Below, in pieces: positions 52,229-59,295 of a DNA stretch of 64,000 nt. Position numbers and translations under genes: made by a program. The notes beneath the pieces are model-generated. The model did no database searches. It worked only from the letters and a program-made list of their open reading frames with translations, and was not told the DNA's origin. This stretch comes from Sulfurospirillum cavolei (GTDB taxonomy: Bacteria > Campylobacterota > Campylobacteria > Campylobacterales > Sulfurospirillaceae), in assembly GCF_001548055.1 (NCBI RefSeq), contig NZ_AP014724.1, positions 1,178,001 to 1,242,000 of the forward strand, in the 5' to 3' direction. How positions within the stretch are numbered: position 1 is the first letter of the stretch; each line of letters starts with the position of its first letter.

Positions 52229-52244
52229 TGTACATATTTGTACA
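52229..52244 (+). promoter_or_regulatory. Probable enhancer site for the AnfA/NifA-type activator
   Basis: TGTACATATTTGTACA fits both GTAC-N6-GTAC (reported for VnfA/AnfA-type activators) and TGT-N10-ACA (the NifA upstream activator site). It lies 133 bases before the anfD ATG and about 100 bases before the predicted transcription start, in the usual enhancer range. Its binding protein is probably the activator encoded at 56.4 kb. Confidence 0.7.
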
Positions 52245-52319
52245 CAGATGCTTTTCTCCACTCCTCTTTTATTTTTTCAAATAGCCTAAAATAGGCACTT
52301 TTAAGCTCTTTAACCTTCG

Positions 52320-52334
52320 GGAATACTCTATGCA
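52320..52334 (+). promoter_or_regulatory. Candidate sigma-54 promoter of anfDGK
   Basis: GGAATACTCTATGCA has the invariant GG and GC separated by exactly ten bases. It resembles the GGAA-N8-TGC form known from Campylobacter RpoN promoters. The predicted start is about 32 bases before the anfD ATG. A second candidate at 52294-52306 (GGCAC...GC) has a nine-base spacing and is less likely. Confidence 0.55.
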
Positions 52335-52376
52335 GTTTAGGAGATGAAATCATTCATCACACCAAAGGAGAAGACC

Positions 52377-56341: not shown

Positions 56342-56399
56342 ATTCGTTATATAATTAAATATATAATGCTAAAGTTCGTTGATATTACTTGAGGAGACG

Positions 56400-57941
56400 A
56401 TGGTGGATACTACCTGTATTAGCCCGATAAAAGATTGCCCGCGTTATCAAGAGCTTAGAGTATTATACGATATTTCTTTGGCACTTCGCGAGAGTGCTTT
56501 AGGAATCGAAACGGCTTTTGAAAAAACGCTTCAATTGCTCAAAAAACATTTTTATATGGATAAAAGCATCTATTACGGTTTAAACGACGAACAAAACGAA
56601 CTGTACGTGTTTAGTTCGATCGGACTGAGTCGTCAACAAGAGCTCTTATGCACGTATAAAATCGGTGAAGGTGCAACGGGAATGGCGGCGGAATTTAAAG
56701 AGCCCGTCGTGATCGAGAACGTGCATCACAATACCCTTTTTCTCAATAAAAGCCGTAGTTTGAAGAAAAGCGAAATCTCTTATTTGGCGATTCCGGCGTT
56801 ATCGCACCATCAACTCTTAGGCGTGCTGGGCGTGAGCCTTACTCAACAGTCTTTAGATAATTTTGAAGAATTGATTACGATTTTGTCGATTACGGCATCG
56901 TGGTTAGCACAATCGAAGCAGATGCATCAAACCATTATCGATGAGAAAAAGCGGCTCAAAGAAGAAAAGCTTTATTACAAAGAAGAAATTTTAAGTCCTC
57001 ATGAAATTTTGGGGCACAGTGCATCGATTCAAACCGTTTTGGAGATGATTCACAAAGTCGCGCAAACCGATTCAACGATCTTTATCAGCGGAGAAACGGG
57101 AACGGGCAAAGAGTTGATCGCCAAAGCACTTCATAACTGTAGCCTTCGTAAAGAAAAACCTTATATCAAATTAAACTGTGCGGCAATTCCGGAAAATCTT
57201 TTGGAAAGCGAACTTTTCGGACATGAAAAAGGAGCGTTTACGGATGCAAAAGAGATGCGTAAAGGGCGTTTCGAATTGGCGGATGAAGGAACGCTGTTTC
57301 TCGATGAGGTCGGAGATTTGAGCCTCAATCTTCAAGCCAAGCTTTTGCGTGTTTTGCAAGAACAAGAGTTTGAACGTTTAGGCGGCGTTAAAACGATTAA
57401 AGTCAACGTACGCATCGTTGCGGCGACCAATCGTAATCTTAAAGAGATGGTTCGCGACGGCCGTTTTCGAGAAGACCTTTTTTACCGCTTGAACGTGATT
57501 CCTATCTTCTCCCCTCCTCTTCGCGACCGCGGCGATGACATCATTGTGTTGGCGCGTCACTTTTTGGAGCACTTTTGCAGGCGGCACGGCAAAGAGCGTC
57601 TTTTAACATCCGATGCCGAAGCTATGCTCAAAGCTTACGCATGGCCGGGCAATATTCGCGAACTTGAAAACAGTATGGAACGCATCGTGTTGCTGGCTCC
57701 TTCTTTACATGTCGATTCGCACGTGATCCTTTCGGTATTGCCGGCAAAAAACGAAGTGACGAACAAAGAGGTCGAAACCAAAGCCGATTTGGAAGATTTG
57801 GAACGCCAAACAATCATTAAAGTTTTACGGGAGTGCGGCGGCGTCAAACTCAAAGCGGCAAAAAAACTGGGAATGAGTAACCGTCAAATCGGTTATAAAA
57901 TTCAAAAATTTGACATCGGTATCGGTGATTACCTTGAGTAG
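56400..57941 (+). CDS. anfA: Sigma-54-dependent activator, AnfA/VnfA/NifA type
   Basis: The protein is 513 residues (MVDTTC...), with GAGGAG just upstream. The N-terminal GAF domain (~20-180) is preceded by C6 and C13, reminiscent of the Cys motif of VnfA/AnfA. The AAA+ domain has Walker A GETGTGKE (231-238), sigma-54 loop GAFTDA (278-283; GAFTGA is usual), and Walker [12 protein letters not shown] Fis-type helix-turn-helix ends it ([20 protein letters not shown]). The oxygen-sensing Cys linker of some NifA proteins is absent. It probably activates anfD through the site at 52229-52244. Confidence 0.88.
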
Positions 57942-57957
57942 CGTCACTCAAAATTCT

Positions 57958-59295
57958 ATGCAATCGCCGCCTCGTTTTTTATTTCAAGACCTTTTTGACG
58001 ATACGGCGTGTTCACATATCGGGAGTAAAGATAAAAAAACGACATGTGAACGTTTACAACCCGGCTCATGCGTTAGCGGATGCGCTTTGGAAGGTGCATT
58101 CAATTTTTTGAGTCCTATTCAAGGATGCGCGCATTTGATTCATTCGTCTCCGACATGTTATAACGCTTCGCGTATTCAAAAGAAAGACGGCACGGAGCAT
58201 TTTTGCACGACTTTGGCACTCAACGATCTGATATTCGGTGCGGAAGAAAAACTGAAAATGCAGATTAGCCATATCGCTAAGACCTATCGTCCTCGCGTGA
58301 TTTTTATTTACATGACGTGTGTTAGCTCGTTGATAGGCGAAGACATCGAGCGGATTGCCAAAAGCATGCAACAAGAGCTTGGTATTTGGATCGTTCCGGT
58401 AATGTCCGCAGGCTTTTTAGGGGTTGCAAATTTCGGTGTACGTATTGCGGGTATGGCGCTTTTAAAGACGTTAATCGGGCTGAAAGAGCCTTTAATCGAT
58501 ACCGCGTATGCAATCAACCTTTGGGGCTACGGACTGAGTGAAACCCAACGGATGAGTTATCGCATTCTTTTTGAACGCGTCGGAATGCGCATTTTGGCAT
58601 TTTTCGGCGGTGATGAAGCGGTTGAAGCGATTATGGGTGCACACAAAGCAAAACTCAACGTTTTAATCAATGCCAAGTCGTTAACGCCCGTCGCGCGAAA
58701 ATTTGAAGAACGATACGGCGTTGCGTACGTGGAAACTTCGTTTTTCGGTGCTCGCGCGACGTGTGATGCATTGCGCGTGATTGCGGAGCAGTTTAATGAC
58801 GGAGCGGTGTGTCGTAAAATTGAAAATATGATTCACGAAAAAACCAAAGCCCTACAAGAAACATGTAAAGCGTTTCATACGCTTTTTTCCGGAAAAAAGG
58901 TCGCGATTTTATTGAACGGACTCTTTTCGTGGGCCTATATCCCGCTTTTGGAAGATTTCGGGATGCATGTCGTTGCGATATCGATTGAAAATTTGAATGA
59001 AGACGATAAAGAAAAAGCGGTGGATTTGCTCTTAGGCAAAGGACGTTTTATGTACGATCCAAACGTGGAGTTTGAAGAAATTGTGAACGAAGAGCCTATC
59101 GATATCGTGATTACCGATACGGATCATTGCGCTATCGCTTCGCGAGCACATATCCCTTTTTTCAATATCGATCGTTGTTCAAATCCGTTTTTTATTGGAT
59201 TTGAAGGGGAAGCGGCGTTCGCGACGGAACTTTCATTGACACTTCAAAACCCCGTATTTAATATCGTCTACCAAAACCCGCCGTGGCAAGAATAA
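57958..59295 (+). CDS. NifE-like nitrogenase-family protein with an altered cofactor site
   Basis: The protein is 445 residues from the ATG at 57958. A TTG at 57934 that overlaps the activator stop is an alternative with better coupling. It resembles NifE: QPGSCVSGCALEGAF, LALNDLIFGAEEKL, YMTCVSSLIGEDIERIAK and VETSFFGARATCDAL. The three Cys matching the permanent Fe-S cluster site are present (C42, C67, C121). The Cys matching NifE C250, the proposed ligand of the cofactor precursor, is Asn here (N238, in KLNVLINAKS). No NifN partner lies nearby. It may assist FeFe-cofactor assembly or have a new role. Confidence 0.82.
   Translation: MQSPPRFLFQDLFDDTACSHIGSKDKKTTCERLQPGSCVSGCALEGAFNFLSPIQGCAHLIHSSPTCYNASRIQKKDGTEHFCTTLALNDLIFGAEEKLKMQISHIAKTYRPRVIFIYMTCVSSLIGEDIERIAKSMQQELGIWIVPVMSAGFLGVANFGVRIAGMALLKTLIGLKEPLIDTAYAINLWGYGLSETQRMSYRILFERVGMRILAFFGGDEAVEAIMGAHKAKLNVLINAKSLTPVARKFEERYGVAYVETSFFGARATCDALRVIAEQFNDGAVCRKIENMIHEKTKALQETCKAFHTLFSGKKVAILLNGLFSWAYIPLLEDFGMHVVAISIENLNEDDKEKAVDLLLGKGRFMYDPNVEFEEIVNEEPIDIVITDTDHCAIASRAHIPFFNIDRCSNPFFIGFEGEAAFATELSLTLQNPVFNIVYQNPPWQE

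Follow-up and report, generated by a model that had tools for sequence, protein, structure and literature searches.

The window analysed here, a stretch of 64 kb, belongs to a Sulfurospirillum genome assembled as one contig of 2.70 Mb. Between cysE and an aspC-like aminotransferase gene lie six genes on one strand: anfD, anfG, anfK, a PNPOx-fold (split-barrel) gene, an AnfA-type activator gene and a NifE-like gene (Table 1). A first-pass annotation of the sequence had listed the same six, and it was also right that cysE, not anfH, stands upstream of anfD and that anfH, anfO and nifN are missing from the cluster.

Table 1. Genes and candidate sites of the anf cluster and its borders (positions within the window)
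Feature	Position	Strand	Basis or remark
cysE (serine O-acetyltransferase), left border, outside the system	51430..52149	+	TIGR01172, 224.8 bits (cut-off 210.65)
GTAC-N6-GTAC, candidate AnfA/VnfA-type enhancer site	52230..52243	+	sole copy within the 64-kb window
GG-N10-GC, putative sigma-54-type promoter core of anfD, GGAATACTCTATGC	52320..52333	+	likeness to the core before nifH
anfD, FeFe protein alpha subunit, 522 aa	52377..53945	+	TIGR01861, 1021 bits (cut-off 874)
anfG, delta subunit	53957..54310	+	TIGR02929, 173 bits (cut-off 125)
anfK, beta subunit	54320..55708	+	TIGR02931, 911 bits (cut-off 854)
Split-barrel (Pyridox_ox_2) protein, presumably FMN-binding, perhaps a distant Anf3 relative	55772..56299	+	PF12900, 81 bits
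AnfA/NifA-type sigma-54 activator (GAF-AAA-HTH)	56403..57941	+	PF01590, PF00158, PF02954
NifE-like gene, no adjoining NifN partner	57958..59295	+	O-cluster cysteines kept, cofactor cysteine replaced
aspC-like aminotransferase, right border, outside the system	59370..60542	+	directly behind cysE in 14 of 23 Sulfurospirillum cysE loci

In profile searches, all three structural proteins scored above the cut-offs of their own models, and AnfD reached only 679 bits with the VnfD model (cut-off 823) and 331 bits with the NifD model, which upholds the earlier assignment of AnfD to the Fe-only type. Almost the whole of AnfD can be aligned with the AnfD chains of the solved structures 8BOQ and 8OIE, and the cluster-ligand motifs are conserved, so that the ligands are intact as first described. 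The motifs include NAHAYH in AnfD and TCQPC and GGQGC in AnfK, whose residues we take to be the ligands of the metal clusters. Because the TIGR01861 alignment begins at residue 12, the true start of AnfD is most likely MPYHEF at 52377, not 52344. By sequence, AnfDGK is component 1 of an Fe-only nitrogenase, and a FeFe-cofactor and reduction of N2 free of Mo and V are predicted. Fe-only nitrogenase genes are not new to this phylum: an excerpt of a 2016 report already describes S. multivorans and two strains of S. cavolei as carrying Fe-Fe nitrogenase genes (PMC4794192), which qualifies the first-pass remark on the phylum. Our literature search found no published account of reductase sharing in Sulfurospirillum or of the NifE-like gene.

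The activator carries GAF, sigma-54 AAA and Fis-type HTH domains, and scores 481 bits with the NifA model (cut-off 529); an AnfA-type regulator belongs to every one of the seven fully examined Sulfurospirillum loci. A one-base variant of the putative promoter core, GGAACACTCTATGC, starts 54 bases upstream of the nifH ATG of the same genome, and similar sigma-54-type cores precede anfD in loci L017, L018, L152 and L153. The GTAC-N6-GTAC sequence fits the A. vinelandii VnfA1 motif, given as GT(T/A)C-N6-GTAC in an excerpt of PMC9542535; it is a weak candidate for an enhancer site, since the strict motif was not found at six other Sulfurospirillum anf loci. The split-barrel protein scores 152 bits to 2HTI and 32 bits to Anf3 (6RK0), and homologues above 150 bits occur in 25 of the 80 nearest anf loci, both Sulfurospirillum loci among them.

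Seven Sulfurospirillum loci, the window's own among them, have the cluster in conserved form, and AnfD is 99% identical to that of UBA4058 and 88% to that of S. diekertiae. The anfD dN/dS values are 0.018, 0.029 and 0.022 (three usable ratios out of six pairs), those of anfG and anfK are also very low in the pairs tested, and selection on all three genes is comparable to that on the flanking cysE and aspC. The anfD gene is under purifying selection, and this, with conservation in seven loci, disfavours chance or decay. Distribution in the genus is patchy: 8 of 23 Sulfurospirillum cysE loci have an open anfD, one (G109) retains only anfD pieces, and 14 have no anf, with cysE followed directly by the aspC-like gene, an empty site. 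Such patchiness, and the remnant in G109, would be expected if the cluster were a recent non-functional insert on its way out, a reading that the very low dN/dS of anfD, anfG and anfK makes hardly credible. Together with the one insertion site, these ratios rather indicate that the insertion is older and that some lineages have retained it.

The genome holds a single Fe protein. A profile search gave one full match (400.7 bits), which is NifH, beside nifDK; the remaining four matches scored 24–30 bits and covered only parts of the profile. Likewise, one NifB (559 bits) and one NifV (478 bits) were above cut-off, and nifD, nifK, nifE and nifN are encoded elsewhere in the genome, where nifE adjoins nifN; translation gives two separate genes and rules out a nifEN fusion. 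A PF09582 search of the whole genome gave no match for AnfO. The first-pass annotation had offered two explanations for the missing genes, a second anf locus or a reductase and cofactor assembly common with a Mo nitrogenase encoded elsewhere, and had proposed a genome search for nifH/anfH/vnfH, nifB, nifEN and nifDK. That search, with one Fe protein, one NifB, and nifDK and nifEN elsewhere, excludes a second anf locus or a hidden anfH on the assembled chromosome and favours the shared machinery. One strong Fe-protein match apiece was also found in six other anfD-bearing genomes (G056, G206, G234, G247, G379, G399) and in G109; G397, which is S. diekertiae, has the same coordinates as G206. A plasmid-borne Fe protein absent from the assemblies is possible.

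A Fe-protein gene lies no more than 3.5 kb upstream of anfD at 75 of the 80 nearest loci. The five exceptions are the two Sulfurospirillum loci; one MAG, L022, with an AnfH-like Fe protein on a different contig of its genome; and two contigs whose sequence begins close ahead of anfD. AnfO, scored across loci with a profile built from one seed, gave no match in 24 of the 72 loci with sufficient downstream sequence; these include both Desulfosporosinus loci, which stand near the inferred donor. The rare feature is the missing anfH; a missing anfO is not unusual. Like anfHDGKOR of A. vinelandii and anfHDGK-123 of R. capsulatus, the Sulfurospirillum cluster has an AnfD of the Fe-only clade, AnfG, AnfK, an AnfA-type activator and a sigma-54-type promoter, and NifB and NifV are common with the Mo system. 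Unlike them, it is without anfH and anfO, anfR was not seen, a NifE-like gene is added, and a BH0577-like split-barrel protein stands where Anf3 would be. The closest AnfD relatives are those of Bacillota (Desulfosporosinus, Paenibacillaceae), where the split-barrel gene is present in many loci and AnfO is often not found; in contrast to Sulfurospirillum, Bacillota loci have a Fe-protein gene no farther than 3.5 kb from anfD (L022 excepted) and no NifE-like gene above 300 bits.

A second Campylobacterota lineage, represented by G117, a draft genome of about 100 contigs from another family, repeats the pattern independently. In the AnfD tree, Sulfurospirillum groups among mostly Bacillota rows and G117 among Alphaproteobacteria, and a single clade of the two, and with it a single origin of anf in Campylobacterota, is rejected (p-AU 0.001; the test used 50 of the tree's 91 rows, and the lineage pair was picked after seeing the tree). 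The tree and the test show that G117's lineage acquired anfDGK independently. As in Sulfurospirillum, AnfDGK occurs in G117 with one strong NifH match in the genome. The locus differs in its origin, in having AnfO and in lying inside the nif locus upstream of nifH (anfD-G-K-PNPOx-anfO-nifH-ORF-nifD-nifK). A short ORF before G117 anfD was considered as an anfH remnant and rejected; its DNA matches the start of the nifH in the same locus (86% over 37 bases), which suggests that the nifH start was duplicated. Given two independent gains, each with one NifH, anfH has been lost or left behind twice.

We consider it very probable that AnfDGK of Sulfurospirillum came from a Bacillota-like donor, was inserted between cysE and the aspC-like gene, and operates with no dedicated Fe protein. 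When Mo is scarce, transcription of the cluster would depend on AnfA and sigma-54 RNA polymerase. The FeFe-cofactor would draw its precursor from NifB and its homocitrate from NifV, both belonging to the Mo system, and the one NifH would take part in maturation as well as pass electrons to AnfDGK; here we infer the activity of the enzyme, the productive docking of NifH on AnfDGK and the regulation. One NifH apparently serving both enzymes runs counter to laboratory results in A. vinelandii, whose FeFe protein, according to an excerpt of PMC10803253, reduced N2 only with AnfH and not with the two other Fe proteins. The same result lends some support to a different outcome, in which the genes are expressed and AnfDGK, fed by NifH, reduces H+ or CO2 and acetylene alone, as an electron sink or side activity rather than by fixing N2. 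The NifH of anf-carrying Sulfurospirillum agrees with this in that it appears to have no clear adaptation, because no column is wholly distinct between seven anf-carrying and seven anf-less rows (a weak test). We nevertheless judge a mere side activity decidedly improbable: anfD, anfG and anfK are selected about as strongly as cysE and aspC, the AnfA-type regulator is present in all seven fully examined loci, and the presumed docking face of AnfD has changed towards the NifD state.

These changes concern columns 111, 152 and 156 of AnfD, all three shifted to the NifD state in Sulfurospirillum and column 152 alone in G117. We assume that the columns lie near the docking face and that a NifD lysine has a docking role; a literature search found no paper naming this lysine. 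Of 11 control clades, nine have no NifD-ward site, and Magnetospirillum (column 416) and Desulfosporosinus (column 189) have one each. Counted row by row, at least one such site occurs in 7 of 77 AnfD rows (the 80 nearest loci minus L017, L018 and L022; 75 with a visible Fe-protein gene and two, L021 and L079, cut by contig ends), so that the G117 site alone would prove little. No identical convergent residue was found between Sulfurospirillum and G117 in AnfD, AnfK or AnfG. Column 152 came from a charge-class test run after that search came up empty; the same test gave an acid at column 24 in both lineages, but also in 12% of other rows, and no column in AnfK or AnfG. When each control row in turn took G117's place, none of the 77 gave a shared column that was missing from every remaining row, but 2, 13 and 21 of 77 did so at looser limits of 2%, 5% and 8%. 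At the AnfG contacts, Thr is kept in AnfH-less rows, but AnfH-bearing rows are themselves variable at both positions, so that the comparison carries no information.

Column 152 is not diagnostic, because the AnfD of R. capsulatus, with AnfH present, also has K there; A. vinelandii has E, and D is found in another two AnfD sequences from G422's class. R. capsulatus belongs to the Alphaproteobacteria, and so do the closest relatives of G117 AnfD; K152 in G117 might therefore also be a legacy of the donor. An AnfD search in Alphaproteobacteria returned only the query genome, and one of plasmids only three Nostoc records below 60% identity, one of them annotated vnfD. The shifts towards the NifD state are only suggestive of adaptation to NifH. 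A stronger version, in which both Campylobacterota lineages re-tuned a foreign AnfD docking face for the resident NifH through a basic column 152, with a NifE-like switch lowering FeMo-cofactor assembly in Sulfurospirillum, we regard as unlikely. Because of its smaller gene set, Fe-only nitrogenase is favoured for transfer to plants; the enzyme also converts CO2 to formate and methane. Two natural AnfH-less lineages offer a ready-made AnfDGK that should accept NifH, with few residues to test; the specificity between Fe protein and AnfDGK would become testable, and the minimal gene set could shrink by one gene.

The NifE-like gene most likely starts at ATG 57958, directly beyond the stop codon of anfA; the ORF listed from 57910 begins at a TTG that lies within anfA. 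The first-pass name holds for kinship, with 36% identity to NifE over nearly the whole length and the [4Fe-4S] cysteines kept, but not for NifE proper: the protein scores 294 bits with TIGR01283 (curated cut-off 505), is without the cofactor cysteine and has no NifN alongside. The first two O-cluster cysteines are present in 6/6 readable copies and the third in 7/7, while the cofactor cysteine is N, S or G in 7/7 copies and C in 23/23 NifE; we take the kept cysteines to be O-cluster ligands and the replaced one an L-cluster ligand. In the NifE tree the copies form one group, though branches are long and the outgroup, with one NifD row 13% filled, does not hold together. Of the 24 Sulfurospirillum genomes, eight carry the gene, and these are exactly the genomes with an open anfD; the remaining 16 comprise 14 with the empty site, one with anfD pieces and one lacking a cysE locus. 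The gene's dN/dS of 0.11–0.23 in four of six pairs (the two others saturated) indicates selection.

This distribution, the cysteine pattern and the selection would suit a dominant-negative NifE, produced only together with AnfDGK, that binds NifN without being able to hold the L-cluster, lowers FeMo-cofactor synthesis, frees NifB-co and keeps the wrong cofactor out of AnfDGK, which is AnfO's job elsewhere. An excerpt of PMC9310841 is in line with such a role, since an anfO deletion in A. vinelandii is suppressed by mutations mapping to vnfENX, and anfO mutants of R. capsulatus are predicted to be rescued by loss of nifEN. AnfO is missing from the present genome and present in G117, where no NifE-like copy was seen among the top three candidates scored. 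However, pairing with NifN would be an assumption, and substitution for AnfO is weakened by the many Bacillota loci without both AnfO and a NifE-like protein; we hold this role to be quite unlikely. Should the protein indeed block FeMo-cofactor assembly, it would represent a new way of controlling the choice of cofactor. Alternatively, the protein might be an Fe-S electron carrier or assembly factor, homodimeric or paired with AnfK, which is possible but rather unlikely. The conserved Fe-S cysteines, an N-terminal CSH..C motif in 6/6 readable copies and the lack of a NifN-type gene in the cluster point this way, whereas the A. vinelandii FeFe-cofactor, in the same excerpt (PMC9310841), needs no EN-type scaffold, and the nearest solved relatives of the protein are NifE, not AnfD.

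The source genome is assembled as a single contig of 2,698,323 bases, with the window as its bases 1178001-1242000, and an Fe-only nitrogenase cluster of six genes on one strand had been read there in the first-pass annotation. That identity held up in profile searches, in which AnfD, AnfG and AnfK all scored over the Fe-only model cut-offs and below those of the V models, and AnfD could be aligned over nearly all of its length to two Fe-only alpha subunits of known structure, 8BOQ and 8OIE. AnfD is 99% identical to that of UBA4058 and 88% to that of S. diekertiae, which places the source genome in Sulfurospirillum. 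The absence of anfH and anfO was likewise borne out: a genome search with the NifH/frxC family gave one full-length Fe protein outside the cluster (400.7 bits) and four partial profile matches at 24-30 bits, and AnfO was not found in the genome by profile search. The cluster is a conserved Fe-only nitrogenase without an Fe protein of its own.

Two sources of the missing functions had been proposed, a second anf locus or a Mo nitrogenase elsewhere with which the reductase and cofactor assembly are shared. The component-1 family has seven matches in the genome (NifD, NifK, NifE, NifN, AnfD, AnfK and the NifE-like protein), and this single AnfD and single AnfK, with one full-length Fe protein, rule out a second locus on the assembled chromosome. 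Sharing is supported by the one nifH beside nifDK and by one NifB and one NifV over cut-off. If the contig carries all Fe proteins, then AnfDGK can be reduced only by what the gene next to nifDK encodes; gene content strongly implies that NifH would be common to both nitrogenases.

Coordinates of features in the window, the source genome and the compared stretches
Feature	Sequence	Coordinates	Strand
anfD, anfG, anfK, split-barrel gene (Pyridox_ox_2), AnfA/NifA-type activator gene, NifE-like gene; between cysE and aspC-like aminotransferase gene	window		+
NifE-like gene, last of cluster	window	57958-59295	+
Full-length Fe protein gene	source genome	1517819-1518670	-
Duplicated nifH start	L150 (G117)	12600-12773	
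Phosphonate uptake/C-P lyase-like gene run	L155 (G109)	4420-14639	
NifE-like frame, shifted start	L154 (G379)	6176-7540	
ORF between nifH and nifD	L013	17382-17741	
NifH with acid-rich insertion	L013	17771-18682	
PII-looking ORFs	L079	795-1556	

A missing upstream Fe-protein gene is rare. Because the best 80 of 148 anfD loci were kept, the sample consists of the nearest relatives, and in 75 of these 80 such a gene lies no more than 3.5 kb 5' of anfD. It is missing from the other five: the two Sulfurospirillum loci, L017 and L018; L022, from a Peptococcaceae MAG that encodes an AnfH-like Fe protein on a separate contig, in the company of other component-1 genes; and L021 and L079, in which the contig starts shortly before anfD. 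A missing AnfO is ordinary: a one-seed profile gave no match in 24 of the 72 loci whose downstream sequence was long enough. By eye, two PII (glnB-type)-looking ORFs lie directly 5' of anfD in L079, a Planctomycetaceae MAG contig.

Among 397 Campylobacterota genomes, evenly sampled from a larger group, AnfD exceeded the cut-off in seven: six Sulfurospirillum, including the source genome, and G117, a draft genome of another family. Wherever NifH was searched for in Sulfurospirillum, the genome gave one strong match, and so did G117. The cysE locus was obtained from 23 of 24 Sulfurospirillum genomes, with an open anfD frame after cysE in eight (fully read in six, and in G403 and G404 to the end of the available stretch), anfD pieces only in G109, and an empty site, the aspC-like gene directly following cysE, in 14. 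Gene order is identical in four loci (L151-L154): cysE, anfDGK, split-barrel, anfA, NifE-like, aspC, gltD-like. In G109, translations judged by eye place a phosphonate uptake/C-P lyase-like gene run between the anfD pieces and aspC. The presence of Fe-Fe nitrogenase genes in S. multivorans and in two strains of S. cavolei has already been reported (PMC4794192); a table in PMC5518199, which describes Sulfurospirillum genomes, has anfG in its nitrogen fixation row, and the Figure 1 legend of PMC5328986 gives a symbol for Epsilonproteobacteria. A search of open-licence papers, which did not take in the census of alternative nitrogenases by Addo and Dos Santos 2020 (cited in PMC9310841), turned up no mention of the absent anfH or of a NifE-like gene.

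The phylum acquired its anf genes twice. The AnfD tree unites the seven Sulfurospirillum rows, within a set of 13 that also holds four Bacillota and two MAG rows labelled Planctomycetota and Deltaproteobacteria/Myxococcota; Paenibacillaceae adjoin this set. AnfD of G117 falls inside Alphaproteobacteria, beside Telmatospirillum and Rhodoblastus. Forcing the two together cost 50 log-likelihood units (p-AU 0.001, for groups chosen after the first tree was known), which rejects a single origin. As the nearest relatives in both donor groups, L022 excepted, have an upstream Fe-protein gene at anfD, anfH was on two occasions either lost or not transferred. The G117 order is anfD, anfG, anfK, split-barrel, anfO, nifH, ORF, nifD, nifK, and a duplicated nifH start lies just 5' of anfD (86% identity over 37 bases), perhaps through promoter capture; the simplest reading is that the anf genes were put behind this start and use the downstream nifH. 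The ORF between nifH and nifD (147 residues in G117, 119 in L013) has no Pfam match in either.

The NifE-like protein is 36% identical to NifE of the same genome and below the NifE cut-off. Every readable copy keeps the O-cluster cysteines; the cofactor cysteine is present in 23/23 NifE, and 7/7 NifE-like copies carry N, S or G in its place. Its gene occurs in 8/24 Sulfurospirillum genomes, the same eight with open anfD; the other 16, several of them incomplete, comprise 14 with an empty site, one with anfD pieces and one with no cysE locus. Against L151, identity is 51% for the NifE-like protein versus 88% for AnfD, and dN/dS is 0.11-0.23 (four pairs), compared with 0.018-0.029 for AnfD and 0.035-0.092 for NifE (three pairs each), all remaining pairs being identical or saturated. 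The protein evolves quickly yet under selection. In A. vinelandii, according to PMC9310841, FeFe-cofactor synthesis requires no EN scaffold, and loss of vnfEN rescues mutants deleted for anfO. We hypothesize that the effect of a NifE-like protein pairing with NifN but unable to hold the cluster would point the same way as that of vnfEN loss. In L154 the NifE-like frame start is shifted near a T run, with the first codons out of frame, through phase variation, decay or sequencing error.

The double absence of anfH is surprising. According to the paper on the R. capsulatus complex (PMC10803253), AnfH was the only Fe protein with which the Fe enzyme of A. vinelandii was observed to reduce N2, and NifH has Asp in place of Arg69 of AnfH; identity to NifH is about 90% for VnfH and about 60% for AnfH (PMC9571451). 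No NifH column had wholly different states between anf-carrying and anf-less Sulfurospirillum (7 vs 7 rows), and position 69 is Asp in 29/29 Campylobacterota rows readable there, so any adaptation would be expected in AnfD. Read from the alignment, this position of AnfH is K in 61, N in 10 and A in 1 of the 72 rows, out of 78, that could be paired; back-counting from Cys97 gives E in 6/72, perhaps through a one-residue gap. In Sulfurospirillum AnfD, three columns are shifted to the NifD state, with A replaced by G at 111, R gained at 152 and K gained at 156, states found in 0/77 other AnfD. The Phe that corresponds to Phe125 of NifD is followed two residues on by column 111, and 152 and 156 are in the helix following IGDD; we take all three to face the Fe protein. 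Residue 152 is basic in 15/15 NifD and 2/2 VnfD examined. G117 has K at 152. Against adaptation to NifH, AnfD of R. capsulatus has K152 alongside an AnfH, and the G117 donor group belongs to the same class; once 8BOQ, 8OIE and another two AnfD are added to the 77, a basic residue at 152 occurs in 1/81. The shifts are suggestive, though not proof, of adaptation to NifH. Ahead of its first cluster cysteine, NifH of Sulfurospirillum and of most of the other Campylobacterota compared has up to 12 inserted residues, many of them acidic; AnfH proteins lack this insertion.

GTAC-N6-GTAC, a motif that fits the VnfA1 site (PMC9542535), occurs once in the window, 90 bases before the GG-N10-GC core 5' of anfD, and its strict form was not found in six other Sulfurospirillum anf loci. 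AnfA activity in A. vinelandii requires nifH (same source). In the source genome a core one base different from that of anfD precedes nifH.
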